Shown here in pieces: positions 5,468-24,145 of a stretch of DNA of 64,000 bases. Position numbers and translations under genes: made by a program. The DNA is from Cognatundibacterium jejuense (GTDB lineage: Bacteria; Pseudomonadota; Gammaproteobacteria; Burkholderiales; Burkholderiaceae_D), in contig NZ_JACOFV010000008.1 in the NCBI RefSeq assembly GCF_014284255.1, forward strand, positions 62,001-126,000, read 5' to 3'. Positions within the stretch are counted from its first letter, which is position 1. Every line of letters begins with the position of its first letter. The notes under the pieces are model-generated. The model saw only the letters and a list, made by a program, of their open reading frames with translations. It had not been told where the DNA came from and made no database searches.

Positions 5468-5477
5468 AAGAAAAACA

Positions 5478-6818: not shown

Positions 6819-6905
6819 TTTAATTACATTACTTTTATTACAATGTATTTTTATGTGAATTCGTGGACAAACTGACCCTCGGATTCACTAAATAGGAGAT
6901 TGAAA

Positions 6906-7858: not shown

Positions 7859-7861
7859 TTC

Positions 7862-8374: not shown

Positions 8375-8435
8375 TTCTATTTATATGTGACAATAAAGTG
8401 CGAACCTATAATAAAAGTATAGATTATTTGAACAA

Positions 8436-9281
8436 CTACGGCATAGTTAACTTATTATTTTCCCTGTAGACAGCAGGTGTCACTCCGTAGCAAGCTTTTA
8501 GCCAACGTGTCAAATGGCTTTGATCGGCGAAACCAGTTATGAGTGCGATTGATGATAGGTTGCCACCCTGTCGTAACAGAGATTTTGCCATAGATGTACG
8601 ACGTGCCTGAACAAATGCAATGGGAGTAACTCCTATCGATTTCCGGAACCGCCGGATGAAGTGGAAGCGACTCATATTCGCTATATCGGCCAGCTCGTCG
8701 ACCCTCAGCGTTTCCCCTAAATTAGCGTCGACGTACTGAATGATCGTAGAAATACGTGGAAAATCGTGAAGCCCTTCCGCCACTTCACTTCGCAAGCCGC
8801 GGCCGTAGCGCTCGGCTATATCGAAAATCAATGCCTCCATGATGCTGTCGTACGCAAGTGGCTCTGTAGTTCTCGCAAGTGTGTCAAGCGCAAGTTTCAA
8901 GCGCTTGCCCAGCATTGGATCGTGAACAACAGGTTCAGGAAAGTAAATAGTAGAACCTGTTATCTTTTTCATTGCATCGGTGGATACGAAAATATTACGA
9001 TAGGTGACGCCATGTCGCTCAGCTGCTCCGCCGGTATGCATTTGGTCCGGATTGATGAATACCAAATCCGTTGTCGTTGCGTAGCGCTCCGCACCACGCC
9101 AATGGAAACGCTCAACACCCGTCTCGACCACGCCGATCACGTAGCCGTCATGAACATGCGGTGAAAAAACTTTTCGCACGATTTGCGCACGTAACAGCTC
9201 AACATCATCTCTGTGTAGTGCTGAATTGAACTCAACCAATTCGCCAAACTCACTAAATATATCAGTATCAATTACCGTCAT
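8436..9281 (-). CDS. AraC-family transcriptional regulator
   Basis: A 281-residue regulator: an N-terminal cupin-type AraC-binding domain (FSPHVHDGYVIGVVETGVER, then the NPDQMHTGGA segment) and a C-terminal double helix-turn-helix (LADIANMSRFHFIRRFRKSI and the AGFADQSHLTRW-like second HTH, here TGFADQSHLTRWLKACYGVT). The start is ATG 9279-9281, behind AAGAGAA; an in-frame upstream extension to 9347 has no family similarity. It is the only regulator in the left cargo, so it may control dinB and possibly the amino-acid derivative cassette. The inducer is unknown. Confidence 0.88.
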   Translation of the reverse strand: MTVIDTDIFSEFGELVEFNSALHRDDVELLRAQIVRKVFSPHVHDGYVIGVVETGVERFHWRGAERYATTTDLVFINPDQMHTGGAAERHGVTYRNIFVSTDAMKKITGSTIYFPEPVVHDPMLGKRLKLALDTLARTTEPLAYDSIMEALIFDIAERYGRGLRSEVAEGLHDFPRISTIIQYVDANLGETLRVDELADIANMSRFHFIRRFRKSIGVTPIAFVQARRTSMAKSLLRQGGNLSSIALITGFADQSHLTRWLKACYGVTPAVYRENNKLTMP

Positions 9282-9820
9282 AATTCTCTTCTTATACACC
9301 AAGTATCGAAGTTTGGAATGACAACGTGCCCACCGTGGTTTGCACATGCCGTACCGTATTCAAATTTGTTAATAAAAAATTATTTTACTTGATTTTTAGA
9401 AACAGTAAGAAGTCTTTTTATGTAAATATTGCAATAATTTTGTGATTAAAATTTCTATTATTTTTGTCAAAAAATTTTATCACGCGATTGGCAACAATCA
9501 ATTTCACACAATGGTCTGCTAGGATCAATCTCTCTGGTAATTTCAGGGGTAATGTTCGTGTCGAATATTAATTCCACCGTCTTTTGATTATCTCCCCGCT
9601 TCTACCTTGGTTAGCGTGTCTAGGACTTGCTAAGTGCAGTGAAGCCCTCAATGCCGGTTTTTCATTGGGCGAAAAATCCAAAATAAGTTTCATCCCCCCT
9701 TTGAAAAACAAGCGCCGCCCCAATTTGTCCCTCGAATAAGAATCGATCGTCGTCAAGACAATCGATTCCGCCTATTGGGCCACAATATCGCCAACAAATT
9801 TCGACCACCTGGAGCGGCCG
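9282..9820. other. Intergenic region with a sharp composition change
   Basis: About 540 bp with no convincing gene. From 9282 to about 9540 it is very AT-rich, then near 9570 the base composition jumps towards the GC-rich style of the next gene. The frame of the following gene stays open upstream of its ATG back to about 9743, with protein-like codons but no start, so that gene may once have been longer. The jump marks a probable junction between separately acquired cargo pieces. Confidence 0.5.
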
Positions 9821-11398
9821 ATGCCTTCCCTTTTGTCTAACAAAGAATTCCGAAAAGCCTTCTTGGTCGACACCATCGCCATCGACTGCAAAGATATTTT
9901 GCTCACACAAAACGGAGTCGACGCGCCGAAGAAATACTCGGGCCCAGGGACGATCATTGCGAGCGCCAGCTCCGGCATTTCGTCGCGCTTCATCTTGTTC
10001 CAACCGTGCGACCCAACCGAAAGCCTCATCGAGCGATTGATAAACATCGAGAAAGTAAAATCCGGTCAGATCTTTCCAGACGACCACTACTACAGCCTGC
10101 ACGCCGTCGAAGCAACGGGCGAGGTATGGACCTGCGATGACGTCAGAGTCGAGGTCGCGCAGCACAGAGAGCACTCCGTCGTCGAATTCAAATGCGATTG
10201 GATAAAGAAGCAGACCTCAGCCGAAGGGCAGAAGGATACCGTCCACATCCTTCTCACGAGCGCAATCGAGTTTCCACCGAATGCTTTTGAGCACCATGAG
10301 GTCAAGAGAGACGGAAGGCTGTTGCACGAGGTCAAGGGCATCGGATCGAGCGGCCAAGCCGCCGGAGCGAAAATACGATACCGGCATCACGAAGCGCCCG
10401 AAGAGTGCTTTGAGCTCATTGCCGAGCCCATCGAAGGTGCCCTGCCACAAGTATTCGCCACCAAGATCATCGAAACCATCAGGTTCATGACCGCAAGCGT
10501 GGTGACATTTTTCGTAAGCGAAACCATTCACGGCGGCGTCCGGACCTTCGAGATCGCGAAGCCGCGAGAATTGAAAAAGGGCCTCTTTCCCGAGCCGCTG
10601 AGGGACCGCCGCGACCTCGCCAAAGATTTTTACCATCTATTGGACTGCTATTTCAAATATTCATTGCAGGACCAGCCGAACGGCGATTTCAGCTTCATCT
10701 CGCAGGCGATGCATCCACTCTACAACTTAGGCGAGGCATCGTTGGATGCGATCGCCCTGTTGATTTGCGTGGCAATCGAGAGCGTCGTCCAGCATGAGTT
10801 CAAGGAATTTGGAAAGCCAAACCCTGCGATGCTCGCAGATTTGCAAGTGATCCAGAGCGCGATCAAGGACCTCGACATCGCGGAAGCCGCTAAGAACCGC
10901 GCCAAGGGCTCGCTCGGCGGCTGGAAAGATAGCCGGATCACGGACAAGCTCTTCGACTTGCGCGACAGAGGCAAGGTCTCGGACAACGATATCACCAATT
11001 GGAAAAACCTGCGCAACAAGGCGGCCCATGGAAACCTGCATGGCTCGAACAAGAGTTACCAGGAACTACTCGATGGCGTCTACAAAGCGTCCACCTTCTT
11101 GCACAAGCTGGTGTTTCTCGCCATTGGATACAAGGGCAAGTTCACAGATTATTCGACTCACGGTTGGCCCGAAAAAGATTTCGGAATTGCGCTGCAAGAT
11201 CCCCTTCCCGCGGAAGTTCCTGTTGCGAGTCCCGACACAACGCTCCCGACCCCGCCTCCTTCGCAGAGAGATGGGCTTTTCCGACGAATTGCGAACCGCC
11301 TTCGGAATTTGTGGAGGCGAGTCTTGGAAGGTTTGTCGGGCCTACTTATCGCCCATCGTTATGCTGTCGACCTTCTTTCGAAGAGCAGCGACGGGTAA
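9821..11398 (+). CDS. Large HEPN-domain protein (ApeA-like), candidate defence RNase
   Basis: A 525-residue protein. The C-terminal half has the HEPN ribonuclease signature Rx4H in LRNKAAHGN (Arg398, His403), followed about 40 residues later by the IGYKGKFTDYSTHGWP tail typical of ApeA-like HEPN proteins. The first ~290 residues form an uncharacterised domain that may sense a trigger. HEPN proteins of this kind are mostly toxins or abortive-infection effectors acting on RNA. The gene is much richer in GC than its neighbours, which suggests separate origin. ATG 9821 follows a GGAG site; the in-frame upstream extension leaves the true start uncertain. It appears to stand alone with no partner on its strand. 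Confidence 0.72.
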   Translation: MPSLLSNKEFRKAFLVDTIAIDCKDILLTQNGVDAPKKYSGPGTIIASASSGISSRFILFQPCDPTESLIERLINIEKVKSGQIFPDDHYYSLHAVEATGEVWTCDDVRVEVAQHREHSVVEFKCDWIKKQTSAEGQKDTVHILLTSAIEFPPNAFEHHEVKRDGRLLHEVKGIGSSGQAAGAKIRYRHHEAPEECFELIAEPIEGALPQVFATKIIETIRFMTASVVTFFVSETIHGGVRTFEIAKPRELKKGLFPEPLRDRRDLAKDFYHLLDCYFKYSLQDQPNGDFSFISQAMHPLYNLGEASLDAIALLICVAIESVVQHEFKEFGKPNPAMLADLQVIQSAIKDLDIAEAAKNRAKGSLGGWKDSRITDKLFDLRDRGKVSDNDITNWKNLRNKAAHGNLHGSNKSYQELLDGVYKASTFLHKLVFLAIGYKGKFTDYSTHGWPEKDFGIALQDPLPAEVPVASPDTTLPTPPPSQRDGLFRRIANRLRNLWRRVLEGLSGLLIAHRYAVDLLSKSSDG

Positions 11399-11802
11399 TT
11401 CGGAGAACCAACTTTTACGGTTGTGGCCGGATTTGCTTTCAAGGATCTTCGCTACCAAATCATCCGCCCCCACTAGGCTCGGGCCAAGCTCCGTGAGCCC
11501 TCCAGCAGCTTTTATAGCTTCCCGGCGATGCGAACTCTCGGACGGGCTCCGCCCTCCCTCGGATCTCCCCGACCGTTTTCGCCCTCACGCACAGCGAACT
11601 GAGCTAGCTAGCAAAGTTTGATGTTCAAATCGACGTTTATGATGTAATGATAGTAGAAGTCAGGGCGGTCTCTTACACGATAAACTCAGAGGACTCGTTT
11701 GAATCCGTCGGCGAAAGCAGTCATTGAAAATAATGAAGATCAATATTTGATTAAAACCAGGCAGGCGCACTGTTTGGATTTAGCACAGAGGGAGTATATG
11801 AA
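11399..11802. other. Intergenic region after the HEPN gene
   Basis: About 400 bp. The GC-rich style continues to about 11,620 and then reverts to AT-rich. Other open frames here only overlap the HEPN gene end and show no protein-like features. The last 100 bp should contain the promoter of the next gene; its ribosome-binding site GAGGGAG is clear. Confidence 0.45.
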
Positions 11803-12837
11803 ATGGCGATGCCAGCATTGGATGCAGAAAAATTAAAGGAAAACGCACTGACATCAATTCGTCTTGGAATTGAAGATTTTCAGCGCAGCCGCCTTGCACC
11901 GGAACAAAACGGCGACCCTGCTCGCGCTCTATCAGCCATACGCAATTTATTTGCGGGTGTTTTACTTTTATTTAAATACAAGATTGCCACGTCAGTCGAT
12001 GATCCGGAGGATGCCACCACCCTCATCTTTAACCCGCCCGAGGTGTTACCCCAATCTGATGGAAATGGCGGAGTTGAATGGCAGCCCGTAGGAAAGTTCA
12101 AACGCACAACCATTGATGTGGCAACGATAAAAAAACGCTTCGAAGGTTTCGCCATTGAAATGGATTGGGCCACGATCGACAAACTGCAAGAATGCCGCAA
12201 CCATCTGGAACACTTGCATCCAGCGAATACGCTTGGTGAGGTTGCAGACTTTGTTGCCGAGCTTTTTCCGATATTGCGTGATTTTGTTCAGACACAGATG
12301 AACGAACAACCTGCGGAACTGTTGGGTGCAGCATGGTTGATCATGCTTGAGCATCACACATTCTTTATGGATACCAAAGTGGAGTGTGTCACCGCCTGGA
12401 AAGAGGCTGGCGTACCTGATCTGATGCAGCACTGGCTTGATGAATGCCAATGTGAGGATTGTAGTTCGTCGCTGCTACGCCCTCATGCTGAAGATATAGA
12501 AAACGGTATAAGTGTTGAAGGGCACGATGACGCGTTCAGGTACGTCTGCGTCGCCTGCAGCCATTCCGATCTCATCGGGCCATTGATGATTAAGAATCTC
12601 GATGACGCCTATGACTACGATCCTCGTGATGGTGAAGAACCTGGTATCGAGACCTGCAATGAATGCGAGCGCGATACGTTCATTATTGGCGAGCAACACT
12701 GTTTATGGTGCGAAGCAGAACTTGTTTACACGGAATGTGACCTCTGCGGAGAGGCACTCCGACAGGATGACCAGTTTAATGATGGACTTTGCGGATACCA
12801 TCATCATGTGCACGAAAAGATGATGCGCGATGATTGA
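11803..12837 (+). CDS. HEPN-like protein with C-terminal zinc ribbons
   Basis: A 344-residue protein. The N-terminal ~190 residues are helical and contain Rx4H in ECRNHLEHLH (Arg132, His137), the arrangement of HEPN ribonucleases. The C-terminal ~140 residues hold several Cys pairs: CQCEDC, CVAC, CNEC, CLWC, CDLC, and a final CGYHHH. Together they would form two or three zinc ribbons, possibly for RNA or protein binding. I do not recognise a named family. The start follows GAGGGAG; a second ATG lies two codons in. The gene stands alone on its strand. A role as an RNA-targeting defence or toxin protein is inferred from the motif and the neighbourhood. Confidence 0.65.
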   Translation: MAMPALDAEKLKENALTSIRLGIEDFQRSRLAPEQNGDPARALSAIRNLFAGVLLLFKYKIATSVDDPEDATTLIFNPPEVLPQSDGNGGVEWQPVGKFKRTTIDVATIKKRFEGFAIEMDWATIDKLQECRNHLEHLHPANTLGEVADFVAELFPILRDFVQTQMNEQPAELLGAAWLIMLEHHTFFMDTKVECVTAWKEAGVPDLMQHWLDECQCEDCSSSLLRPHAEDIENGISVEGHDDAFRYVCVACSHSDLIGPLMIKNLDDAYDYDPRDGEEPGIETCNECERDTFIIGEQHCLWCEAELVYTECDLCGEALRQDDQFNDGLCGYHHHVHEKMMRDD

Positions 12838-12914
12838 CCGTCAGACACGATGAGTCATCAGTCTATCTGTTGTTCGTCGTCATTTTTTTAATTACAAACA
12901 ATGAAGGTAATAAC

Positions 12915-13373
12915 CTATATTGGTCGTGAGGATATTGAAAGACAATTCCTCAATCGCCCTTCGGCTTGTTCGTCGAAGCCTGTCGGGGAATTGGTTTTAA
13001 TTAGATTTTTTAGAAACGGTTTAAAAAGATAAGGTTTATCATCAATCGCCAGCCAGTTTATCCAAGGCCGACAAGACTTTCTCAACCAACCTTCAATTTC
13101 AGCATGCCGCTGATACCCGATGGTATCCATAATCTCTGGAATTTCTCTCCATGCTGGTGTAGTACCTATGATCCTGTCAGCGATATCTTCTGAGAAGAAT
13201 GCTTTAAGTTCTATAAGTGAGCGTTTGTCTCTCCATGTACTAGAAATAACAATCTGTACTTCAGGGAAATCTCTTAAAACATTTTCCAATCGAGGAAGAC
13301 AGGAGAATAGCTGTGCCTCTTCATAGCAGGGTTCTGGATGCAAAACGCCATCAAAATCTAAAAACAAGATCAT
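12915..13373 (-). CDS. HAD-like hydrolase domain protein
   Basis: A 152-residue protein beginning MILFLDFDGVLHP, where DFDG is the HAD nucleophile motif (DxD). The segment VISSTWRDKRSL is the motif II region, and the LAIDDKPYLF segment near the C-terminus supplies the acidic motif IV. This compact form resembles the HAD domain found in RNA-repair and nucleic-acid-processing proteins. It is usually of unknown substrate. ATG 13373 is preferred to a TTG at 13388 because of an AGG site 8 bp before it. It is convergent with the HEPN-zinc gene, 77 bp away. Confidence 0.75.
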   Translation of the reverse strand: MILFLDFDGVLHPEPCYEEAQLFSCLPRLENVLRDFPEVQIVISSTWRDKRSLIELKAFFSEDIADRIIGTTPAWREIPEIMDTIGYQRHAEIEGWLRKSCRPWINWLAIDDKPYLFKPFLKNLIKTNSPTGFDEQAEGRLRNCLSISSRPI

Positions 13374-13886
13374 TTTTTTAACCTGCAAAAATTAGGTTAA
13401 GTAAATTAAAAAACTCCATATCAATACACACTTGAATGGTGCTTTATTAGTTAACCACAGACACACTCGTCATAAATAACTTAAGTAGGAGAACTGAAAG
13501 ATACTATTTGCTTTGTTTGTGATTCATGCAAATAAACACGGATAATTCACTCGTTTGCCGTTAGCAATACGTAAATTTCAATGGTACATCACAATGAAGC
13601 AGCCTTTATAGAAGTCATCGCACGACTACGAGAGCACGATGAAGAAAATTGGTATATATATTTGCATAAAAAGCATGTAAATATGAAAATTTAGCTGCTA
13701 ATTTAAAGTATAATTTTTTCTTAACAAAAGATCTTAGCCAAATCATTTTTCGAGACACTCGTTAAAAACCTTAATAAAATACGTCCGCTTCTTACCTTAG
13801 ATCTTAAATATTCGAAAAATAATGATATTTTTTTTTGATTGTTATTTAAAAAGCAAACGCCCATCAAAATTGGTGAGCGTCTAAAT
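13374..13886. other. Intergenic region upstream of the PRTase operon
   Basis: About 510 bp, very AT-rich. It holds one short open frame (13581-13694, ATG start, 37 residues, MVHHNEAAFIEVIARLREHD then EENWYIYLHKKHVNMKI) that may be a gene remnant or a small peptide gene; it has no clear ribosome-binding site. The remainder presumably carries divergent promoters for the HAD gene and the three-gene operon. Confidence 0.4.
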
Positions 13887-14804
13887 ATGTCTTTTGAAGT
13901 TCCTACTGATTCACGATCAGAATATTACAACTCAGTATGTAGAAAAACTGAGTTATTAATAAAGAACAATATTCTTGTCGGAATAAAACATTTCCAGCTA
14001 AGAGCGTGGCTCAACAATTTTGAGAGTACGCGCGAACAATATTTAGCGGCTCATTTGCTTGACGCAATGATTTACCGCTCTGACGATATGCTCAAAAGTA
14101 TGTTGAGACATTTGCTGGAAATGGAACTTCCAGCAGCATTGGAGGAGTGTGGTTACGACACATCATCTTCAATGAGAAATTTTCTCGATTCACTATCCAG
14201 TGCATCTGATAATGGCTCGATCAAATTCGTCGCTTTAGACGGAGAATTTGATCGAGTACCAGGTAAGTCTGGTGCTGCAATAATCCGAGATTTACGTGAC
14301 TCTGGATTGGTTAACAAAATTAAGACAGTTAGACCAGAAAATGTTGTCACGCTCCCAGATAAAATTAAATATTTAGTGATGATCGACGATTTCGTTGGAA
14401 CAGGTTCACAATTCGAAAAATTTGCCAATCATTATGATATTGAATCTTGGGCTAAAAAATTCAAGCTCATTTATCTCTCTTATATGGCTTACGAGGACGG
14501 ACTCAAATCAATAAAAGACAAATTTCCATATATAACGCTTCGTTGCGGCGAATTATTATCAACAGCAAATAATTTTTTTGCCGCTTCAAAAATCGATAGC
14601 AATTTGTGGGGACGTGACTCCTATAACAGCGTTGACGACGTAAAAAAGTTTTATGACGGAGTATTAAAGAAAAAAGGAATTTCCGATACGGTCAAATTAT
14701 TTGACCTAGGTTTAACAGTAGTAACTTCGATGTCAGTCCCAAACAATACACTTAAAGCTTACTGGAGTGACAAAGGTCAATGGTCTCCCATAAGGAGTAG
14801 ATAA
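13887..14804 (+). CDS. Phosphoribosyltransferase-like protein, first gene of a three-gene putative defence operon
   Basis: A 305-residue protein with a recognisable PRPP-binding loop, LVMIDDFVGTGS (about residues 163-174). It has the two adjacent acidic residues and the GTG turn of type I phosphoribosyltransferases. It resembles the PRTase-CE group, described as effectors of bacterial conflict systems rather than nucleotide salvage enzymes. ATG 13887 is chosen because GGTGAG lies 8 bp upstream; a TTG at 13839 would add 16 residues. The stop abuts the ATPase start behind an AAGGAG site, so all three genes are co-expressed. A nucleotide-modifying or nucleotide-depleting effector role is inferred. 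Confidence 0.72.
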   Translation: MSFEVPTDSRSEYYNSVCRKTELLIKNNILVGIKHFQLRAWLNNFESTREQYLAAHLLDAMIYRSDDMLKSMLRHLLEMELPAALEECGYDTSSSMRNFLDSLSSASDNGSIKFVALDGEFDRVPGKSGAAIIRDLRDSGLVNKIKTVRPENVVTLPDKIKYLVMIDDFVGTGSQFEKFANHYDIESWAKKFKLIYLSYMAYEDGLKSIKDKFPYITLRCGELLSTANNFFAASKIDSNLWGRDSYNSVDDVKKFYDGVLKKKGISDTVKLFDLGLTVVTSMSVPNNTLKAYWSDKGQWSPIRSR

Positions 14805-16811
14805 ATGAAAAACCAGCACTATTCAGAAGCTTTTTTAAAAAACAGAGCTGAGCTACTTCCGGATGATGTTTGGGGGCAGTTTGTTGTCCCTCATTTCATT
14901 GGTAGTTCCCCGGTTCTAAAAGAAAAAAAAGCGGTCAAGATCGAGGGTGGACGTGGGTGTGGTAAAACAATGTTAATGCGGTATCTATGCCATTCGACCA
15001 CCTTTAGTCGTAAAAGGAAATTAATTCCTGACAGTGCTTTAGAGTTCATTGGCTTATATTGGAAACCAGATATTCGTTTTTGTAAGCTTCTTAAAAGTGC
15101 TTGGCTCGGAGACGAGGCGGATGTAGCTTTCGCTCATTACTTCACCATCAGCGTTCTGGAGGCATTATGTGATTGTGTCGAAAGTATGGCCATGGCTGAT
15201 TTTGAGAGCGGCATCCTAGACTTGCGGAAAGTTGCCCTGCCAAATACGCTGCGTTCATATTTTCCAAAAGATATTTTGACGTTTGATTTGCTACGTAACC
15301 ATATTAAGAGTGAACGGAGTGCTCTAGATCTTTGGGTGCAAAATCCTAAACTAGAAAGACCACTAATGTTCGGATTTAAGGATGTTTTAAATAATATTCT
15401 TGAAGTATTTTTGAATGCGGACAAGCGATTAAAAGACAGTTTTTATCGAATTTTTGTAGATGAATTTGAAAATTTACAACCGTCTCAGCAGCGTATTATT
15501 AACGACTATATCAAACAACCTCAAACACTATTTTGCGTTAGTTTCTCTGTTCGCTCGCATGCAATTTCTGAGTTTTTTACTAGTACTGACGAACAACTTA
15601 TAGATCCTCATGATTACCGAACTATAAATATCGAAGAACAACTTTTGAAGGGTGGTCGAAAGAATTTCGAATTACTTGCAGCTGAAGTTGTTTTACTCAG
15701 ACTCAGTAATGAAGGCTTCGATATTCAGTTTCCGAACTTTAAAAGAGAATTTTTATTTGACCCAAGATTTCTGCCAGAAAGAAATGAAGATCTATATAAA
15801 TCAGCGGTATTAAATCGTGTAAAGGAAATTTTTCCTCAAACATCTGTTAGCGAGATTGCTTCCCACGCTTGTAACGATCCGGCGCTAAAAAATCGGTTAG
15901 AGAAAACAATTAAATTAGCCTTGAAACAAAGGGGTATTCATGACATCACGACCGATATATTTTTCGACAAAGTTCATCCAACTGTCAGTATTGTAGCGGC
16001 ATCTGTTCTACATCGTGGTAAGTTGAAGACCAGTTACATCCTTGAGCAGCTGGAGTTGTCCATTAGTAGTCCTGAAAGAAGCGAATTTACAAAAAGAGAC
16101 GGTGGTTGGGTAGAAAACACGCTGCATGGATCAATCCTGTACTTGTACAAAGGTTTACCCAATAGAGAAAATCTACTTTATAGCGGATTTGGTCGTTACT
16201 GCGGGATGACTCGTCCTAATCTGCGATATTTCCAGGAGCTCTGTCATCAGGCTTTTTTAGAGTCAGAGCTACGTAAGGACAGCTTAGTACCAATGGTTGT
16301 GTCCCCTGAAATTCAGGCTTTTGCGGCAAAGCAAGTAAGTACAAAATTATTAAATGAAGTAGAGAGAGCTGGTGCAAACGGCAAAAATTTACACAAATTG
16401 ATTATGCGACTTGGGCATCTTTTCGAGGCTGCTCAGCGCAGGCCAAGTCAGGGAGAGTCGGAAGTAAACCATTTTTCAATTGATGACGCTGGTAGCATAG
16501 GTTTAAAGAATGAAGTGAGCTTATTACTTAAAGATGCACTTATGTGGTCTGTTTTATACCGCACAGACGACACTAAAAATAAGGTTGATTACGATATCGT
16601 ACAAAATGACTATGTTCCAAATCCTATTTATGCACCCTACTTTGGCATTAGCTATCGTAAAAAACGTAAATTGGCGCTTACTGCAGTTGAGATAAATACC
16701 ATCTTTCTTGGAACTGGTATGGAATATCAGAACTTACTCAGGTCTTATACTGAAAAATGGGAGATAAATTCTGAAAACGATTCACGCAAAAATTACGACC
16801 TATTTACATGA
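14805..16811 (+). CDS. AAA/STAND-like ATPase, second gene of the PRTase operon
   Basis: A 668-residue protein. Walker A is GGRGCGKT at residues 48-55 and Walker B is RIFVDEFENL around residues 216-223, followed by CVSFSVRSH, a sensor-like strand. The layout agrees with the ORC-CDC6-like ATPases often found beside PRTase-CE genes. The C-terminal ~400 residues are helical with no recognised domain and may sense infection. It starts one base after the PRTase stop and overlaps the third gene by ATGA. The likely role is a nucleotide-dependent switch that senses a trigger and controls the PRTase. Confidence 0.72.
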   Translation: MKNQHYSEAFLKNRAELLPDDVWGQFVVPHFIGSSPVLKEKKAVKIEGGRGCGKTMLMRYLCHSTTFSRKRKLIPDSALEFIGLYWKPDIRFCKLLKSAWLGDEADVAFAHYFTISVLEALCDCVESMAMADFESGILDLRKVALPNTLRSYFPKDILTFDLLRNHIKSERSALDLWVQNPKLERPLMFGFKDVLNNILEVFLNADKRLKDSFYRIFVDEFENLQPSQQRIINDYIKQPQTLFCVSFSVRSHAISEFFTSTDEQLIDPHDYRTINIEEQLLKGGRKNFELLAAEVVLLRLSNEGFDIQFPNFKREFLFDPRFLPERNEDLYKSAVLNRVKEIFPQTSVSEIASHACNDPALKNRLEKTIKLALKQRGIHDITTDIFFDKVHPTVSIVAASVLHRGKLKTSYILEQLELSISSPERSEFTKRDGGWVENTLHGSILYLYKGLPNRENLLYSGFGRYCGMTRPNLRYFQELCHQAFLESELRKDSLVPMVVSPEIQAFAAKQVSTKLLNEVERAGANGKNLHKLIMRLGHLFEAAQRRPSQGESEVNHFSIDDAGSIGLKNEVSLLLKDALMWSVLYRTDDTKNKVDYDIVQNDYVPNPIYAPYFGISYRKKRKLALTAVEINTIFLGTGMEYQNLLRSYTEKWEINSENDSRKNYDLFT

Positions 16812-17740
16812 TTGAATTCCAAATGCAGTCCACTTATGTGCGTGATAGATGCGGTGATCTTTTCGACGTCGCTTTTATTGCTGAACCACTTGATCAAAGA
16901 GGGGAGTTCACAATTGAGGAAGCCAAATACTTAGCAAGGAAAACATGCAAAATTTCCTACGATCCTAAAACGTTTATACTCAATATTGATGATCTTACTG
17001 TTCGCCCAAACCAACTTGAAAAAGTTGTCGCAACTTATCCTGCTCTAAACGTCCTCCTCGACGCAACGACTTTAGATTTTCCTGACATTCTCTTAATTAT
17101 CAGGGCATATGTTTCACAACGAAAAAAAGTTTGCTTTTCCTTTTTATACGCTGAACCTGAAGAATATCAGACTAAGCCCTCTGAAGATGAAAACGATGCC
17201 CCACATTTTGTGCTCAGCGATTCATTCGAGGCGGAACATCACCCTATACCTGGTTTCACGCCTTTAAATCGCGGTAATAAAAGTCAAGCATGGATTACTG
17301 TTTTTCTCGGTTTTGAGGGACGTCGATTGAGAAATCTAATTGCTGATGCAGAAGCAGAAGATAGGAAACACTACAACCTCGTATTTGGAGTTCCTCCATA
17401 CCGAACTGTCTGGGAGAACCACTCTTTGATTGAGAATTGCCACGTTTTAGACGATATTGGCCGCGATGATATCCTCTACGCAGGTGCGAACAACCCATTT
17501 TCATGTTTTAACATCATTCAAAAACTTTACGAAGCAACTAGGAATCCCAGCGTTGTTTTTGAACTATCTCCTCTTGGAACTAAGCCGGCTGCTATTGCTT
17601 GTGCTGTGTTTGCAGGTTGCCACAGAGAAGTTGGCATCCGTTACGACTACCCCAAAAGATCTTCCGGACGCACCAAAGGAGTAGGGAAAGTGCATCTCTT
17701 TGTTGTTCAAGCCGACGGTGCTGAACTTGGCGAATATTAA
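16808..17740 (+). CDS. Unrecognised third protein of the PRTase operon
   Basis: A 310-residue protein overlapping the ATPase gene by 4 bp, so it is translated with it. No transmembrane segment or signal peptide. The pattern of hydrophobic strands (AWITVFLGFEGRRLRNLI, HYNLVFGVPPYRTVW, PSVVFELSPLGTKPAAIACA) suggests an alpha/beta Rossmann-like fold. Near the C-terminus is a basic, polar stretch (YDYPKRSSGRTKGVGKVH). I do not recognise a family. It could be a nucleotide-binding sensor, an enzyme acting on the PRTase product or a structural partner. The gene ends 7 bp from the convergent methyltransferase gene. Confidence 0.7.
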   Translation: MIEFQMQSTYVRDRCGDLFDVAFIAEPLDQRGEFTIEEAKYLARKTCKISYDPKTFILNIDDLTVRPNQLEKVVATYPALNVLLDATTLDFPDILLIIRAYVSQRKKVCFSFLYAEPEEYQTKPSEDENDAPHFVLSDSFEAEHHPIPGFTPLNRGNKSQAWITVFLGFEGRRLRNLIADAEAEDRKHYNLVFGVPPYRTVWENHSLIENCHVLDDIGRDDILYAGANNPFSCFNIIQKLYEATRNPSVVFELSPLGTKPAAIACAVFAGCHREVGIRYDYPKRSSGRTKGVGKVHLFVVQADGAELGEY

Positions 17741-17747
17741 GTTAAAT

Positions 17748-18947
17748 CTACGTGATTAAAGGCATCTGCATTATGTCCGTAACTGTCAAATATTTTGCAC
17801 ACGTACCGCGAGCATGAGCTTGACGCCAACGCTGGCCAATTTCATGCTGCAATGATTGGAGAATAGTTTCTGCAAACCCTTCATTTGGTCGAATTCGGTA
17901 AATACAGTCTGTTATGGAGCGACCACCCCTCTGAACAATAGCTTGCCTAAGAAGACAGCGAGAACCAACACGAGGAACTAGAATGTCGCCGGCACGAGCA
18001 TGAACCCCAGAAATCTCTGATGCATCTCCAAAATCTATTTCATCAAAATCCGATGGGAAATCTGTCGTATGAAAATGTTCTCGTCCCATTTTAACGAATT
18101 CTATTTTACTTAATGACCCGCGCTGAAAGTCTTGAACAACATCAGCTAGTCGTAGCATCGAAGATTCATCTGCTAAATTAAGTTCTTGAAGCAATTTATA
18201 ATGAGAGAAGTCCATTCTATCAATAGCACTTGAAAATGATACTGATAGGTCTGCTACAACCTCACCTTCAAGGTTCACTTTCCCTAATCGTACATTGTTA
18301 ATGGTAGGCGCCTGATTTCGCAATAATAGGAAGGTAGTATCGACTTCTATCCCTTCAAAAGTAGCAGAGTCTAATTCGGCCACAAAGTCACACTGGTAAC
18401 GCTTCACTAAATCTTGGCGAAACATGCGAAACCCAGGATCAGAAAAAAATGTCTTAGGTAAAATAAAAGCTAGAACTCCCCCTCGTTGAATTAACGACAG
18501 ACTGGCAGCTAGAAAAGCAAGATCCAAACGAGACAACTTGTTTATAGGGATGGTTCTTATAGAAGGAAATGCCCGGTATATTTGGCTTAGTGAATTGCTG
18601 TTTAATATATGGCGTGTGTAAGGTGGATTTCCAATAGCTGCGCTAAAAGGTGCGCAGTGCTGTAACTTACGAAAAGTCCTCATAGATAACGCATCTCCTA
18701 AAAGCACGGACTTTTCAGGAATTTTACCAATCGCCAATTTGTGCCATTTTCGGTCTAACTCAACGCCGACATAATTCATGTTTGGAAATCGGCTTAAGGC
18801 AGACTTGCCAAACGTCCCCTCCCCACATCCCAACTCCAAAATACTCGTTGTATCTGCATCCAAAAAACTGATTATAAAATCAGTAATTCTTTCAGGTGTA
18901 AAGAATTGACCAAGTTTTTGCCGATTACTTACGTATGAGGTTCGCAT
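17748..18947 (-). CDS. Adenine-N6 DNA methyltransferase (Eco57I-like, class I SAM-dependent)
   Basis: A 399-residue enzyme with the SAM-binding motif ILELGCGEGTFG (residues 36-47) and the catalytic NPPY of N6-adenine methyltransferases (residues 107-110, IGNPPYTRH). The conserved N-terminal KLGQFFTPERI is typical of Eco57I/TaqI-type enzymes. The C-terminal ~170 residues would recognise the target. No endonuclease domain is fused and no clear restriction partner adjoins, though a PD-(D/E)XK-like protein lies at 20463. Start is the ATG behind AATAAGGCGAC. It is divergent from the integrase-like gene and convergent with the PRTase operon. Confidence 0.85.
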   Translation of the reverse strand: MRTSYVSNRQKLGQFFTPERITDFIISFLDADTTSILELGCGEGTFGKSALSRFPNMNYVGVELDRKWHKLAIGKIPEKSVLLGDALSMRTFRKLQHCAPFSAAIGNPPYTRHILNSNSLSQIYRAFPSIRTIPINKLSRLDLAFLAASLSLIQRGGVLAFILPKTFFSDPGFRMFRQDLVKRYQCDFVAELDSATFEGIEVDTTFLLLRNQAPTINNVRLGKVNLEGEVVADLSVSFSSAIDRMDFSHYKLLQELNLADESSMLRLADVVQDFQRGSLSKIEFVKMGREHFHTTDFPSDFDEIDFGDASEISGVHARAGDILVPRVGSRCLLRQAIVQRGGRSITDCIYRIRPNEGFAETILQSLQHEIGQRWRQAHARGTCAKYLTVTDIMQMPLIT

Positions 18948-19028
18948 TTTGTCGCCTTATTTTTTACTTGATTATTATAATAATCTTTGATTAAATTGCA
19001 AATGAAATATGTACTCGGAGCAAAAAAT

Positions 19029-19979
19029 ATGAGCGACAAACAACGTGATCTTGAAGAACTAGTGGATGAATGGCTCGCGACAAAGTCATTGTCCCCTCAT
19101 ACCTTGCGAAGCTATACCAATTCGATGCGTCGACTGAGTAACTGGCTAGCTCAATCCGGAGAAACTTTGGGAGAAATGAAAACTTCAAGCTACGAAAATT
19201 TTCTCGAGTGGCTTTCAAATACCTCTTACGACGGAGGGCGCGGCCTTTCTCACCCAAGCGTCGTACAAATTCAGCGGATTACAGGAAATTTTTTCCAGTG
19301 GGCAGTTGAGCATGGCCTTTTGATCCGAAGTCCATCTTGGGGTATAAAATTGCCATCAAGTCCAATTTTAAATCCTCAAATAACTGCATTAAGCAACAAT
19401 AAAGAAACTACTAAATTGGGGGGGGCAGATGGCGCAAGAGTTGATGATATATTGGGCAAACCAATTACAAATTGTCAGGAAAAATATCAACAGAGCGCAT
19501 TAATTTGTAACTTAATTGTATGGACTGGATTAAATCTTGAAGAAATAGCAAAGGCTAGGCTAGTTGCTACTCTAGAGCATGAAAACACAGCCGAAATTAC
19601 ATTAAATTTAGGAAACTCTAACGAAGAGGTAACTGCATCCGTACCTCTGCATGTAGTAACTTGGTTGTATAAATTTTACGGATTGTCACCGAACCGGAGA
19701 CTTCCAGAACAAGGACTTCCCCTAATCCCCCCAAAGAGACGTACGAATGTAAGTTCGTCAACTTTATATAGAATATTACGTAACCTTAGTTTTAGAGATG
19801 GAAGATCCGTCAGCATTCGAAGCCTGCGTGCGCATGTAAGGAAAATTGCGAACGAGCAAGAAATACCACCTGCGACTATCGCCTATCTGCAAAGAGTTAG
19901 CAATTTTTTGATTAACGCACAAAGACCTCGATCTATAGATACGACAATAAAAATATTACTGTGTTCATTTCGGAACTGA
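19029..19979 (+). CDS. Integrase-like (tyrosine recombinase fold) protein lacking catalytic residues
   Basis: A 316-residue protein. The N-terminal part matches the core-binding (SAM-like) domain of phage integrases (LVDEWLATKSLSPHTLRSYT). The C-terminal part follows the catalytic-domain pattern, but the first catalytic Arg is replaced (TGLNLEEIAK instead of TGLRxxE). The HxLRH box reads RSLRAH, and no Tyr nucleophile is present at the end, so recombination is very unlikely. ATG 19029 follows GGAG; an upstream TTG at 18987 is less likely. It is divergent from the methyltransferase gene. A DNA-binding or regulatory role, or an inactivated resolvase of the element, is inferred. Confidence 0.7.
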   Translation: MSDKQRDLEELVDEWLATKSLSPHTLRSYTNSMRRLSNWLAQSGETLGEMKTSSYENFLEWLSNTSYDGGRGLSHPSVVQIQRITGNFFQWAVEHGLLIRSPSWGIKLPSSPILNPQITALSNNKETTKLGGADGARVDDILGKPITNCQEKYQQSALICNLIVWTGLNLEEIAKARLVATLEHENTAEITLNLGNSNEEVTASVPLHVVTWLYKFYGLSPNRRLPEQGLPLIPPKRRTNVSSSTLYRILRNLSFRDGRSVSIRSLRAHVRKIANEQEIPPATIAYLQRVSNFLINAQRPRSIDTTIKILLCSFRN

Positions 19980-20462
19980 CACGTTTCTATCTAGTCGAAT
20001 TCATTCATCAATGATCGAAACGAAGATTCAGAGCTCGCGCTGAGATAGAAATTTTTGTGCACCCGTCGATATACATGACACGACCTATAGCGCATGGGCG
20101 TTTGTCTATTCATCAAGTCAGCGTTCGCGCCAAACTTGTTTGCTAGAAATCAAGAAAGATGATTGCGTTTAATATGTATTTGACATAGAAAAGCGACACA
20201 AAAATAACAAATATGCGATTTTAGTGTTTGTAACTTTGGGAGGATTACTTGACGCAACGTTAGCGCAAAGATTATTTCATCGTTGTGAATATAAACAAGT
20301 TCGTTTCACCAATGACCCTAACGCAGGCCTGCAAAGCGAGTTTGTCTGGGAAAAAGCATTAAATGATATTGAGGGCAAATTGATTGATCCGTAAAAAGTT
20401 CTAAGCGCAGTAGATCGTACAATCGCATAACTAAAATTTAAATGAATTACGAAACATAAAAA
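19980..20462. other. Intergenic region with a probable gene remnant
   Basis: About 480 bp. A protein-like open frame from about 20174 to TAA 20392-20394 on the plus strand reads ...YAILVFVTLGGLLDATLAQR, then a hydrophilic tail ending in IEGKLIDP. It has no ATG start and no ribosome-binding site; the only in-frame start is TTG 20236 (52 residues). It looks like the 3' end of a lost gene, unrecognised. The rest shows no feature beyond AT-rich sequence. Confidence 0.35.
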
Positions 20463-21275
20463 ATGACTAGCAACGATAAGTTCATCCGTGACATGGAGCA
20501 AGACATCATCCAGATTTTTTCAGGGCAAGTTCAGTCTAAATTTCTTGAAATAAATAAAAATGGCGACGTTTTACCATATGTTGTTGGAACGGCCCTATGT
20601 GGGCAAGATCAAGCCCTAGCTGATTACCTAATTGCTGCAAATAGTAGATTTACCCTTATTGAATTTAAAGCAAATGAAAACGCACTGTCGTCCGAAGGAG
20701 AAAAGAAATTACGCGTAAAATTATTGGACGCTTGCGAAACTAATTCGGCATTACGGGCGCGGTCACAAGCTATGCATTGTGCTGCTTGGGGTGAGCTTAC
20801 AGAAATTACTATACCTGGATTGGTTGCCCCCCAATCACAAGTTCAAATAACTGTTTGCCGCTATATACCCCAAATTGCAAAGATTCTTAACAAAGAAATT
20901 CCAAATATTAAATGCAAAGAATGGCAATCTGAGGATTTTATATCAACCTTTCTAGAAAGTATGACCAATGGAGGAGGTCTTAAAAGATTTAAAAGATACC
21001 TTCAAGATCTTTACGAAATTGCCGGAACATCAGGTACCGAAGGTCTAGAAAATTTTCAGGGGTCAATATGTGTTTGGGTTCCGCCCACAAATGGAATTAG
21101 CAGTAAAATTCAAGTATTAAAATTCTCAAGTTTTGAACATCTAATGAAATTAACCATTCATTTTGATAATGAATATTTAATGAGATTGGAACGAAATTCA
21201 AAAATAAAAATTGAAAGAAAGAAAGAAATCGAGCGTGAAATAGGTAAGTCACAAGACTGGTCACCCTCAATTTAA
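20463..21275 (+). CDS. PD-(D/E)XK nuclease-like protein, unrecognised family
   Basis: A 270-residue protein. The segment ADYLIAANSRFTLIEFKANE carries Asp54 followed 13 residues later by Glu67-x-Lys69 on a predicted strand, the typical D...ExK active-site layout of PD-(D/E)XK nucleases. The C-terminal region is helical and highly charged (about residues 235-270, RLERNSKIKIERKKEIEREI). No DNA-binding domain is obvious. It could be the restriction partner of the methyltransferase at 17748 or a stand-alone effector. The upstream ribosome-binding site is poor. Assignment is by local motif only. Confidence 0.5.
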   Translation: MTSNDKFIRDMEQDIIQIFSGQVQSKFLEINKNGDVLPYVVGTALCGQDQALADYLIAANSRFTLIEFKANENALSSEGEKKLRVKLLDACETNSALRARSQAMHCAAWGELTEITIPGLVAPQSQVQITVCRYIPQIAKILNKEIPNIKCKEWQSEDFISTFLESMTNGGGLKRFKRYLQDLYEIAGTSGTEGLENFQGSICVWVPPTNGISSKIQVLKFSSFEHLMKLTIHFDNEYLMRLERNSKIKIERKKEIEREIGKSQDWSPSI

Positions 21276-21353
21276 TTTTATAGAATTGACAGTTTATATT
21301 ACACTTCAAAAGCAATCATATTTACGTGCTTAAATTTTGACACTCTCCAAACC

Positions 21354-21983
21354 TTATTTCTTGTCTTCTCTTTTTCTATTCGATTGGGTACCACGCTTTA
21401 AAATAGTTTCGATAATTTTTTTTTCATTTGCATTCGCATTTGTAATCAAAATTTCTTGGACCTTACCTTGTTCGATATATTGTAAATCGATCGGATTAAC
21501 TATACGATCTAAATAAAATAAATGCGTCAAATATGCAGCTCCGGCAGTAAAAATAATTAAAACAATAGGATAAAGAATCATAAGTATTGAAATACGATTT
21601 ATTTGTTTTTCTAGTTTTAAGTTAACGACATCAACTGTTTTTTCAGCATCTGTAATATCTCGCAAGATGCCTTTTCCCACTTCCTTCGCCTTCGTCGTAG
21701 CTACAGTTCCTGCATTTTCTCCGGCAACTTTGACAATTGAATCTATTCTGTTCTCGACATCAGATATTTTTGACAATTGAATTTTGATAAATTGAGCATA
21801 TCCTTCCAAGTTTTTTCCAATTTGTTTGGATTCGCCAATTGCTTTTTCAAAACCTATGAGGTCATCATAAAATCGATCAATTTCAGTCGTATATTGTTCT
21901 GTTTTTTCGTGAAAATATGTAAATAGTTTAGAAAACTGCATATTTTTATTGGAAATATCTGTTACGTCATCTTTGGAGGGCAT
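21354..21983 (-). CDS. Coiled-coil protein with one transmembrane segment
   Basis: A 209-residue protein of unknown family. Residues about 15-130 are predicted amphipathic helix/coiled coil rich in Lys, Glu and Ile. A single hydrophobic segment (ISILMILYPIVLIIFTAGAA) lies at about residues 131-155, followed by a short polar tail with a basic end. The architecture suits a membrane-anchored partner or effector of a defence system. It is convergent with the nuclease-like gene, 78 bp away. Codon use is strongly AT-rich. No function can be assigned. Confidence 0.55.
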   Translation of the reverse strand: MPSKDDVTDISNKNMQFSKLFTYFHEKTEQYTTEIDRFYDDLIGFEKAIGESKQIGKNLEGYAQFIKIQLSKISDVENRIDSIVKVAGENAGTVATTKAKEVGKGILRDITDAEKTVDVVNLKLEKQINRISILMILYPIVLIIFTAGAAYLTHLFYLDRIVNPIDLQYIEQGKVQEILITNANANEKKIIETILKRGTQSNRKREDKK

Positions 21984-22059
21984 ATGAGGTTCTCTATTAT
22001 TTTTTATTTGATTATTTTAAATATAAAACAACTATTGTGAGACACTATTTTTAATAAAA

Positions 22060-22318
22060 TTCAGTGGTGAGTCACATGGCACCATCGATAAAATCGGTCT
22101 CGACATATTACGCTAATGACTTGGTATCAGCGGCGTACGCTTCAAATTTAGACGCTCTTGCTGCAAAAGCAGACCTTTGGATACATGGACATATGCATGA
22201 GTCCTTTGATTACAGCATTGATCAATGCAGAATGGTATGCAATCCGTGTGGTTATCAGACAAAAGGTGGCACACCGGAAAACGTCAATTTCAATCCGAAT
22301 TTGATTATTGAGATTTGA
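22060..22318 (+). pseudogene. Metallophosphoesterase, C-terminal fragment
   Basis: The frame beginning VVSHMAPS carries the second-half motifs of a calcineurin-like phosphoesterase: SHMAPS (the histidine motif) and WIHGHMHESFDY (the GHxH metal-binding motif), then CNPCGY. The first half, with the DxH and GNHD motifs, is missing upstream; related N-terminal sequence survives at 23022 on the other side of the exonuclease gene. The remaining 85 codons cannot form an active enzyme. Confidence 0.75.
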
Positions 22319-22463
22319 GTTCGCCGTCAAAAGCATTTGAACTATTATTGATTGATGCAGGTAATTTTGAACAAAGATTTCTTCAATGATTTTGTTCTTC
22401 CACGGATTTGTATTAGTTATCGCATCGGTTTGACGTAATGCATATTTTAGATTGAGAAAAGCG

Positions 22464-22928
22464 ATGGTAAATATTTTTATCGATACTGAATTTACAGATT
22501 TCATTGATACGCATTTAATCAGCATCGGTATGGTGACGGCGAAAGGAGAGGAGTTCTATGCTGAAGTTCCTTACCCTGAAAATGCGTGCTCACCCTTTGT
22601 TCGAGAAGCCGTCATTCCTTTGCTTGGAAAATACCCGCAGTGCATTTTTTCAGCGAAGGATTTACAAACGAAAATGTTAGATTGGCTATCATCATTGCGC
22701 CCGATTGGGCAACGAGTCAACATCTGTTTTGATTATCAGACCGACTGGGATTTGTTTGCCGATGCGCTTGATTATTGCGTCCCAGAATGGTGTGCCGCAT
22801 GTTTAGTCGCTGAACAAATCAATGAAATTTCGCGGTATGAGTTTTATGAAAGAAGCCGATTGCCAAGACATCACGCGTTATACGATGCAAGAGCAAATTG
22901 CATTGCGTTTATTGAAGAAAAATCATGA
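22464..22928 (+). CDS. DEDDh 3'-5' exoribonuclease-like protein (Rv2179c type)
   Basis: A 154-residue protein with the order of RNase-T-like exonuclease motifs: IFIDTEFTDF at the N-terminus (Exo I, DxE), CFDYQTDWDLF in the middle (Exo II Asp), and RHHALYDARANC near the C-terminus (Exo III His and Asp). Length and spacing match small stand-alone DEDDh proteins that trim RNA 3' ends. The start is ATG 22464 (GAGAA upstream) instead of TTG 22452. It is the only intact gene between two halves of a broken metallophosphoesterase gene. Its role here is unknown. Confidence 0.82.
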   Translation: MVNIFIDTEFTDFIDTHLISIGMVTAKGEEFYAEVPYPENACSPFVREAVIPLLGKYPQCIFSAKDLQTKMLDWLSSLRPIGQRVNICFDYQTDWDLFADALDYCVPEWCAACLVAEQINEISRYEFYERSRLPRHHALYDARANCIAFIEEKS

Positions 22929-23021
22929 AGGATCTGGGCTTTTTTGAAATATACGATGAATTACTAACAAACCAATGTGCGTAAGGATTTTGGTTAATGA
23001 TGAATGAAAAAGGCTCGTTAG

Positions 23022-23214
23022 ATGATCTTCCTTTGTGGTGACGTCCACGGAAATTTTGAGCAAGTGACACAAAATGTTATTACGTACTCGCCTGCAGCAA
23101 TTATTTTTTTTAGGCGATTTGCAATGACAGCGACCGTTGGAGATAGAGCTTGAAAAGATTCCGGATAAAACCGATATCTGGCTTATTTCAGTTGTCATTT
23201 GGCGGCTTATTTGA
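23022..23214 (+). pseudogene. Metallophosphoesterase, N-terminal fragment with frameshift
   Basis: From ATG 23022 the frame reads MIFLCGDVHGNFEQVTQNV, containing the GDVHG metal-binding motif of metallophosphoesterases. At a T7 run near 23105 the frame is broken: the shifted frame reads IIFLGDLQ, then a TGA, then RPLEIELEKIPDKTDIWLI, after which family similarity ends before GNHD. The frameshift, stop and truncation make it a pseudogene. With the C-terminal piece at 22060 it suggests rearrangement of one former gene or decay of two related genes. Confidence 0.7.
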
Positions 23215-23737
23215 AATGCTAATCACTCGCTTATTTACATTGTCAATTAACGGCTCATTTGATGCCAATGCACATAGGTAACGTCCTATGCGATTTTGCT
23301 CAAAAAACCGCTATAAAACAACGTTAATCGGATTTCTTCTTTTGTCACTTAAATGGTAAAAAAATTAGTCTACAAACAGGACCATTTGAGTACATTGATA
23401 CTCAATAGATAGATTTTGAGTATTATTATGAGCAAATTAACGCTGCAACTAGTCGTTGCCAGAAAAGCTAAAAAGTTCACTCGATCTAAACCTGAAGAGC
23501 AGGTCTGGCTTTATTCGAATGACAGTTGTACGTACGAAGCTTGAGAAAATTTATCCAAGTTTTTATTCGTATCACCACTTTTATCGAAAATGCCATGTCG
23601 CTTGATAGCAGCCACAACACCATGCCCGCGATCAATAACCTGCTAAATTGCTTCTGCTTTGAGTTCTGCTGTGTAGCGATTATTTCCCATTTGGATTTTT
23701 CCCTTCTTAGTTTCGACATTATGAAATTTCTACTAAA
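23215..23737. other. Decayed intergenic stretch with an inverted repeat and a short open frame
   Basis: About 520 bp. An inverted repeat TTGAGTA-N6-TACTCAA lies at 23386-23405, with another half-site TTGAGTA at 23417-23423, immediately before a short open frame (23428-23544, 38 residues, MSKLTLQLVVARKAKKFTRS...). The repeat could be an operator for a lost small regulator or toxin-antitoxin gene; the peptide is not recognised. Nothing else in the stretch looks coding. Confidence 0.3.
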
Positions 23738-24145
23738 CTAGCGGAAGTCCAAAACTCGGGGAAGTTCAGAGTCACCTTGCAGAGCATCATATGGCAGGCC
23801 TTTGGGAGCAAAAGTTGAAACAGGTACTCCAATTGCATGTGCTGTCCGAAGTACTTGTTCTACCAATTGCGTAGTCGGACAAAGATAGACCACAGGCTTG
23901 CGCATATAGCGACGACGCATCATTTCTGCATAAGCCAGGCCAAAAAACGTTTTCTCCGATCCGGTGCTCATCTTTATAACAAGATCGCGAATCTCTGAAT
24001 TTGTATCAAGTGAACCCAATGCCGACAACTGCGGTGGCCTTAAACTAGTATGAGTAGCCTTACGGTCAAGCTGTTCAAATAATGCCGCAAGTGTTGCAGG
24101 TGCATCTGATGAAGTTATGGTCGCTAAGCTTTTAAAATCAAACAT
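23738..24145 (-). pseudogene. DEAD/DEAH-box helicase, N-terminal stub
   Basis: A 135-codon frame beginning MFDFKSLATITSSDAPATLA. It has a superfamily 2 helicase N-terminus with the Q-like RPPQLSALGSL segment, then VIKMSTGSEKTFFGL, where the expected Walker A TGSGKT is changed to TGSEKT. The segment YLCPTTQLVEQ is motif Ia. The frame stops before motif II (DEAD/DEAH), so more than three quarters of a normal helicase is missing. The Gly-to-Glu change and truncation show decay. Confidence 0.75.

Follow-up and report, generated by a model that had tools for sequence, protein, structure and literature searches.

A candidate four-gene defence locus with an ORC/CDC6-type ATPase and a CARF6-type protein in Cognatundibacterium jejuense

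Cas10 produces cyclic oligonucleotides that are recognised by CARF domains; the messengers of CBASS are recognised by SAVED domains. A predicted receptor fold of this CARF/SAVED type, shared with CBASS and type III CRISPR, is found in a locus of Cognatundibacterium jejuense. The locus lies within a stretch of 64,000 nucleotides, the whole of which is referred to here as the window. It differs from CBASS in that the SMODS model has no match in the window's genome, and from type III CRISPR in that the sole match there to the Cas10 model (Csm1) is partial and below cut-off, at 20.2 bits against 170.

Retrons of type III-A carry a phosphoribosyltransferase (PRTase), according to the excerpted text of one report (PMC12548924). 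The window PRTase has in common with this group a full-length match to the PRTase-CE family and a kept PRPP loop. It is instead partnered by the ATPase and the CARF6-type protein, and no reverse transcriptase was found among the ten window ORFs scanned. In one relative (L109), a PRTase-CE protein adjoins a reverse transcriptase (RVT_1). The DprA-PRTase system of P2-like phages is described in excerpts as protecting against T7 and lambda, and it joins a PRTase to a putative DNA-sensing partner, as does the window operon. There, DprA takes the place of the ORC-type ATPase, and those excerpts mention neither a CARF protein nor a methyltransferase (PMC9122126).

BREX and BREX-related systems are similar in having an ORC/Cdc6-type ATPase alongside a DNA methyltransferase, whereas the window system also has a CARF6-type receptor and a PRTase. 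CARF_STK_AAA fusions within CARF6 were noted in 2014, in the excerpted text of another report (PMC4012209). The CARF6 profile and predicted fold recur in the window protein, and one relative (L118) encodes a single 1250-aa protein with kinase, ATPase and CARF6 regions. The window receptor is instead stand-alone, with a separate PRTase and no CRISPR or CBASS synthase found alongside. The parts were known to earlier computational studies, as is evident from the Pfam families PRTase-CE, HD-CE and ORC-CDC6-like and from CARF6 in PADLOC. Earlier papers reportedly named both CARF6 and the PRTase-CE/HD-CE/ORC-CDC6-like set. The combination of ATPase, CARF6, PRTase and methyltransferase was undescribed among the literature matches listed, which consisted of titles and some passages.

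Table 1. Features of the locus and of the element that carries it (window positions)
Feature	Position	Strand	Remark
Tn7-like element carrying the system	2688..32535	.	29,848 bp, inserted in comM-type gene
PRTase-CE family phosphoribosyltransferase (ORF1), predicted effector	13887..14804	+	305 aa counted from ATG
ORC-CDC6-like AAA+ ATPase (ORF2), predicted switch	14805..16811	+	668 aa
CARF6-type receptor-like protein (ORF3), two Rossmann-like halves	16808..17740	+	310 aa
Gamma-class N6-adenine DNA methyltransferase (M.TaqI-like), convergent fourth gene	17748..18947	-	profile matches

The first three genes form a tightly packed unit, as the sequence-only reading had stated. The TAA of ORF1 is followed directly by the ATG of ORF2 (TAAATG), and ORF2 overlaps ORF3 by ATGA. 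These junctions suggest co-transcription of ORF1 to ORF3. A longer alternative start for ORF1 is the TTG at 13839. Promoter-like sites (15 found, 15.3 expected) and terminator-like sites (2 found, 4.4 expected) were at chance level in a scan. That reading took the system to have three parts and overlooked the methyltransferase, which is a conserved fourth.

The PRTase matches Pfam PRTase-CE (PF24390) across profile positions 1-253 of 253 with 169.7 bits (cut-off 27; 1.4e-49), and the PADLOC PRTase_III-A model at 5.4e-22. The DDxxGTG motif, which we take to be the PRPP-binding loop, is present as VMIDDFVGTG. Its residues D167, D168, G171, T172 and G173 show no variation across the alignment, which took in 22 of 23 hits, in keeping with the intact loop claimed earlier. 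The description of the second protein as a 668-residue ORC-like ATPase also holds, with 324 bits to Pfam ORC-CDC6-like (PF24389; cut-off 27; profile 3-571 of 571) and an intact Walker A, GGRGCGKT. The P-loop and D219-E220 (Walker B) are invariant in 44 aligned rows, 44 of 99 hits having been taken in. Sequence searches of the PDB gave nothing convincing for the PRTase (best 0.18) or the ATPase (best 0.54). A collection of 50,697 phage records contained no full-length ATPase and two partial matches.

The third protein, formerly called unrecognised, matches PADLOC CARF6 (PDLC01920) at 5.2e-60, and comparison of its modelled structure indicates a CARF-like fold with a Rossmann-like core. A new fold was rejected on these two results. 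A CARF6 model was also the first match in 10 of 10 neighbours tested, out of 28 fetched and covering all five effector types. All 29 CARF6-type proteins compared, which span every effector type, retain R31. The CARF superfamily is described as having a basic residue directly after strand 4 (PMC4012209, section 6, in excerpt); here K259, a lysine in 28 of the 29, follows the strand 249-255. The same excerpted source has S/T "often" ending strand 1, as a typical and not a defining feature (PMC4012209). This residue is absent from the window protein, where the strand is followed by G168-F169-E170. The protein is of CARF6 type and is predicted to bind a nucleotide-like ligand. The CARF6 alignments took in 103 and 27 of 105 hits, and a PDB sequence search with the CARF6 alignment returned 0 relatives up to an E of 1. 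Counting against the CARF-like assignment, no Foldseek match on its own reached 0.001 or lower, and unrelated rows, such as a ketoreductase at rank 1 and ferredoxin reductases, also stood in the Foldseek list.

The methyltransferase matches PF02384 (2.3e-12), PF07669 (2.2e-08) and PADLOC MTase_II (3.7e-41), and M.TaqI in a PDB sequence search (1.9e-07). The gene order PRTase-ATPase-third gene is repeated in 16 of the 16 relatives fetched first, and each also has a methyltransferase relative. The four-gene linkage covers these 16 loci (L002 and L003 being near-identical) and two more on plasmids (L119, L120). Across 23 four-gene loci, the divergence of the methyltransferase follows that of the ATPase (rho 0.78) as closely as that of CARF6 does (0.76); L003, nearly the same as L002, and L018, which repeats L058, were excluded from this calculation. 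As a point against the proposed marking role, the C-terminal half of the methyltransferase is not hypervariable, unlike a fast-switching specificity domain, in a per-block conservation run that included one locus twice (L018 = L058). No restriction-nuclease family was matched in the neighbouring ORFs scanned, some of which match nothing.

A broader set of 30 loci was picked by the ATPase alone, leaving out ATPase matches below ~49 bits or below 300 of 571 positions. A CARF6-type gene adjoins the ATPase in 29 of these loci, L171 being the one without it. A DNA methyltransferase lies inside the fetched DNA at 26 (gamma-N6 in 11, PF01555 in 7, C5 in 6, D12 in 2), and none was found there in the branch with HAD and/or PfkB-type proteins (L113, L116, L117, L165). 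An effector domain is present in all 27 loci not cut upstream: PRTase in 15, and HD-CE, metallophosphoesterase, a fused kinase and a fused KGGVGR-ATPase in three each. The relatives exchange methyltransferase and effector for unrelated types and keep the ATPase-CARF6 pair. Chance neighbourhood was rejected for the methyltransferase, as the C5 class occurs in 6 of 30 ATPase loci against less than 1% expected per 16 kb. The background was 43 listed C5 places in ~102 Mb from 26 carrier genomes (~0.4 per Mb), a count that includes fragments and the operon's own copies, C5 being the sole class counted genome-wide.

Some arrangements, like L171 and the HAD/PfkB branch, count against a fixed four-gene system. 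In L132, L135 and L136, a member of the methyltransferase family has another, weakly related ATPase for its neighbour; no CARF6 was seen within the ~300 bases fetched beyond that ATPase, and a near-type search found none in the three genomes. Outside the 30, the borderline L178 (G988; 15 kb) has neither CARF6 nor methyltransferase by profiles, and the short loci L133 (G423) and L153 (G1238) have no CARF6. One of 11 CARF6 places (that of the window counted), L069, is fragmentary; it has a methyltransferase and lacks the ATPase.

It is more probable than not that the locus is a defence system of four genes, probably directed against phages, with three functional slots. In the first, the DNA methyltransferase, assigned by enzyme class, would mark the cell's own DNA. 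The second would be a switch made of the constant ORC/CDC6-type ATPase and CARF6 core, as suggested by predicted folds and conserved residues. The ATPase is predicted to engage DNA or to oligomerise, and the CARF6 protein may bind a nucleotide-like ligand and either license or restrain it. The trigger could be DNA that is foreign, carries the wrong modification or belongs to a replicating phage, or a nucleotide made during infection, or both. The triggered core would then release the third slot, the effector, which in the window is a putative PRPP-using phosphoribosyltransferase. With its PRPP loop present, this enzyme may deplete or corrupt the cell's supply of nucleotides or nucleobases, or else act by modifying a macromolecule, and growth and phage replication would stop as a result. 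Defence had also been the best guess of the sequence-only reading, and it is favoured by the models for the PRTase and third protein in PADLOC, which is a library of defence systems, the PRTase-CE relative beside a reverse transcriptase and the DprA-PRTase protection described in excerpt (PMC9122126).

Alternatively, the methyltransferase and ORC-type ATPase could block phage DNA replication directly, as in BREX, without cell death and with the PRTase as an accessory and not a toxin. This exclusion mechanism is unlikely: unrelated enzyme types fill the effector slot, fused to the ATPase in seven loci (L059, L061, L062, L071, L072, L170, L177), which better suits an active output than a passive block. 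These fusions and the single chain of L118 also argue for physical coupling of the parts.

The defence genes proposed here are cargo of a Tn7-like element, as had been stated. Its ends are TGTTAATTCCAT and ATGGAATTGACA, bordered by the 5-bp duplication GTGGA at 2683-2687 and 32536-32540. TniQ, TniB, Mu-transpos_C/rve and Tn7_TnsA-like proteins lie at 27839-32429, and the halves of the interrupted ChlI/Mg_chelatase (comM-type) gene flank the element at 1806-2693 and 32646-33194. Among 72,556 plasmid records, the CARF6 protein was found in 145 and the ATPase in 146, each at 80% or more of the query, and the plasmids are for the most part conjugative. This mobility is in line with a defence role, and it would also suit a module for maintenance or competition of mobile elements, selected because it retains the transposon or plasmid, such as an addiction pair whose antidote is the methyltransferase; phage defence would then be incidental. 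Such a role is improbable, since the system also occurs on long, presumably chromosomal contigs of 0.77 to 1.98 Mb (L012, L014, L016), its complexity exceeds that of a two-gene toxin-antitoxin, and its core has a receptor-like protein with conserved residues.

No dedicated messenger synthase was recognised in the operon, a point against the proposed system. The 30 loci come from 29 genomes, of which 26 were covered here as in the C5 count (G164, G1048 and G1108 excluded). SMODS matched in two of the 26, outside the fetched loci, and the Csm1 model gave weak partial matches in six, the window's genome among them, and none over cut-off. The PRTase might, on these counts, make a nucleotide messenger read by the CARF6 protein with the ATPase as effector, but this is very improbable, and the PRTase is disfavoured as ligand source, because R31, D85, Y114 and K259 are about equally kept with PRTase, HD-CE, phosphoesterase, kinase or KGGVGR.

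A wider reading of the three-slot system, put forward tentatively, is that of a modular immunity whose CARF-type receptor operates in the absence of any synthase for cyclic oligonucleotides. The fixed ORC/CDC6 ATPase and CARF6 core would couple DNA modification status, set by any of four methyltransferase classes, and a small nucleotide made during infection to any one of five or more effector enzymes. Such a system, if real, would be a two-key switch, requiring a wrong DNA mark and a nucleotide signal. The swap pattern offers an experimental handle, as one core can be tested with varied effectors and DNA marks. The CARF6 branch is scattered in proteobacterial genomes, with conserved pocket-type residues and no adjacent synthase, which raises the question of what ligand it binds. 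The system, if as proposed, would link DNA self-marking to a metabolic effector instead of a nuclease, and the Klebsiella version, which is found on conjugative plasmids, could affect the traffic of phages and plasmids.

The operon of the window consists of three plus-strand ORFs joined by TAAATG and ATGA junctions, exactly as the sequence-only reading had placed them. The first ORF encodes a PRTase-CE protein, to which the PRTase_III-A models of PADLOC are related (5.4e-22), and the second an ORC-CDC6-like ATPase. The third protein had been taken as unrecognised; Pfam is indeed silent, but the CARF6 models of PADLOC match it. The P-loop of the window ATPase, GGRGCGKT, bears an arginine that is frequent, not universal, among its relatives, some of which contain K, P or Q.

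Features of the window and of loci fetched for comparison (L-numbers)
Source	Feature	Coordinates	Strand	Evidence or remark
Window	ORF1, PRTase-CE	13887-14804	+	PF24390, 1.4e-49
Window	ORF2, ORC-CDC6-like ATPase	14805-16811	+	PF24389, 2.6e-96
Window	ORF3, CARF6	16808-17740	+	PADLOC models, 5.2e-60
Window	N6-adenine methyltransferase	17748-18947	convergent with operon	M.TaqI likeness
Window	Tn7-like element	2688-32535		29,848 bp
Window	Aminotransferase III and L-lysine/ornithine monooxygenase genes	3636-6818		left end of element
Window	HEPN-domain match	9821-11398		weak; RiboL-PSP, E 0.01, under cut-off
Window	PDC-S64 (PADLOC candidate)	11803-12837		5e-37
Window	330-aa ORF	18987-19979		SAM-like N-terminal domain of tyrosine recombinases; no match to catalytic integrase domain
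Window	Short ORF	23738-24145	-	looks like helicase N-terminal remnant, read by eye
Window	544-aa cysteine-rich ORF, within tns cluster	26250-27884	-	no Pfam hit at E ≤ 0.001
L004	Second, weakly related ATPase and unmatched protein	2104-4888		ATPase weakly matches Sll1717 family
L064	Second, weakly related ATPase and unmatched protein	10059-12692		
L005	SIR2_2-type gene	8910-9896	-	flanked by CARF6 and methyltransferase
L109	PRTase-CE beside reverse transcriptase	7488-10169		retron-like pair
L120	dUTP diphosphatase gene	4344-5009		immediately upstream of PRTase

The claim of a three-gene system is not supported, as a methyltransferase is also present in all 16 loci found through the CARF6 protein. 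PRTase, ATPase, CARF6 and N6-adenine methyltransferase occur together in the fetched DNA of each (one on a Diaphorobacter plasmid, two near-identical ones on Klebsiella plasmids and 13 from the species-genome collection), a retrieval biased toward close relatives. All four genes were also found, via the ATPase, in Cupriavidus and Moraxella plasmid loci (L119 and L120). The side and orientation of the methyltransferase are not constant. Across 23 four-gene loci (the window and 22 others), pairwise identities follow those of the ATPase with a Spearman coefficient of 0.91 for the PRTase, 0.78 for the methyltransferase and, in the same type of comparison, 0.76 for CARF6; the Mantel rank is 1 of 1000 for every pairing. 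Hypervariability of the C-terminal half of the methyltransferase was tested and not seen.

In L132, L135 and L136, the methyltransferase family has a different, weakly related ATPase as its neighbour. CARF6 was not seen there in DNA fetched only ~300 bases past the ATPase, and a near-type search of these genomes found none. L004 and L064 carry such an ATPase in addition to the full system, alongside the methyltransferase and an unmatched protein of 290-330 aa. ORFs like the SIR2_2-type gene of L005 occur in three further Pseudomonas loci (L006, L009, L010; Pfam was run for L005 only).

The ATPase family was also searched alone in overlapping samples of 369 (class), 294 (family) and 349 (order) genomes, of which 7, 11 and 13 carry full-length loci, the window genome being counted in each. 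In the resulting set of 30 full-length loci, window included, a CARF6-type gene adjoins the ATPase in 29 by the report's own profile (exception L171). A CARF6 model was the first PADLOC match for 10/10 tested of the 28 fetched neighbours, covering all five effector types. A DNA methyltransferase, usually but not always adjacent, lies in the fetched DNA of 26 loci: gamma-class N6 in 11, PF01555 in seven, C5 (PF00145) in six and D12 (PF02086) in two. Three misses (L060, L063, L176) are contigs ending near the operon; L165 is a true exception. The effectors are PRTase-CE in 15 loci (own-profile calls, weakest in L165 at 4e-09), HD-CE in three, calcineurin-like phosphoesterase in three (one ATPase-fused), and ATPase-fused protein kinase and KGGVGR-type ATPase in three each, the region being cut off in L063, L171 and L176. 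L113, L116, L117 and L165, which form a distant branch and contain HAD and/or PfkB-type genes, yielded no methyltransferase match. Of these PRTase-ATPase loci, L117 lacks a CARF6-type match and the others show a weak one.

Both outer modules are exchanged. The PRTase loci alone span three methyltransferase classes (7 gamma, 4 PF01555, 3 C5, 1 none). Conversely, C5 enzymes co-occur with PRTase, HD-CE and phosphoesterase, PF01555 enzymes with PRTase and kinase, and gamma enzymes with PRTase and KGGVGR. On the 30-row ATPase tree, methyltransferase class requires a minimum of four changes over 26 labelled rows with 4 states, and effector a minimum of six over 27 rows with 5 states; these counts are rough because the search was quick, branches are long and 7/27 inner branches are open. 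L118, at the place of L094, encodes a single 1250-aa protein uniting kinase, ORC-CDC6-like ATPase and CARF6 region; a 2014 paper noted a family of this sort, its AAA+ domain having a P-loop arginine (PMC4012209). The window ATPase shares that arginine.

The window operon contains no recognised synthase. Of the 29 genomes that contributed ATPase loci, 26 were scanned: SMODS occurs in two of them, while Cas10 (Csm1 model) exceeds its cut-off in none and gives weak partial matches in six. In 29 CARF6-type proteins R31 is invariant, and K259, Y114 and D85 are found in 28, 27 and 25. Their conservation is independent of the PRTase, which disfavours the PRTase as messenger synthase and favours a common, perhaps infection-derived ligand.

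Among 72,556 plasmid records, the CARF6 protein is encoded by 145 and the ATPase by 146, counting matches that cover 80% or more of the query; most are conjugative Klebsiella plasmids. Among complete E. coli genomes (5,426), four carry the Klebsiella version, each time on a plasmid; the strain names denote two C600 and two J53 derivatives. No full ATPase was found in phage records.

In the window, the four genes travel as cargo on a Tn7-like element (G+C 41.9%, against 46.9% in the remaining window) whose ends read TGT...ACA and whose target site, GTGGA, is duplicated. The element lies between the halves of a comM-type gene, which match ChlI/Mg_chelatase. Its PDC-S64 match is a second defence candidate, and the genes at its left end resemble part of a siderophore pathway. 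Enrichment of defence genes in the cargo of Tn7-like elements is described in PMC8649781, which the window element fits in this respect only.

Sequence or predicted structure shows the classes of the enzymes, the intactness of their catalytic loops, the linkage of the genes, the exchange of modules and the receptor fold. In the proposed mechanism, methylation would mark self, the ATPase would serve as DNA sensor and switch, CARF6 may gate it through a nucleotide, and the PRTase would strike nucleotide metabolism, leading to abortive infection. The candidate system is not categorically new, because its parts were already named by earlier computational work; what the analysis can show is a slot architecture with swappable methyltransferases and effectors.
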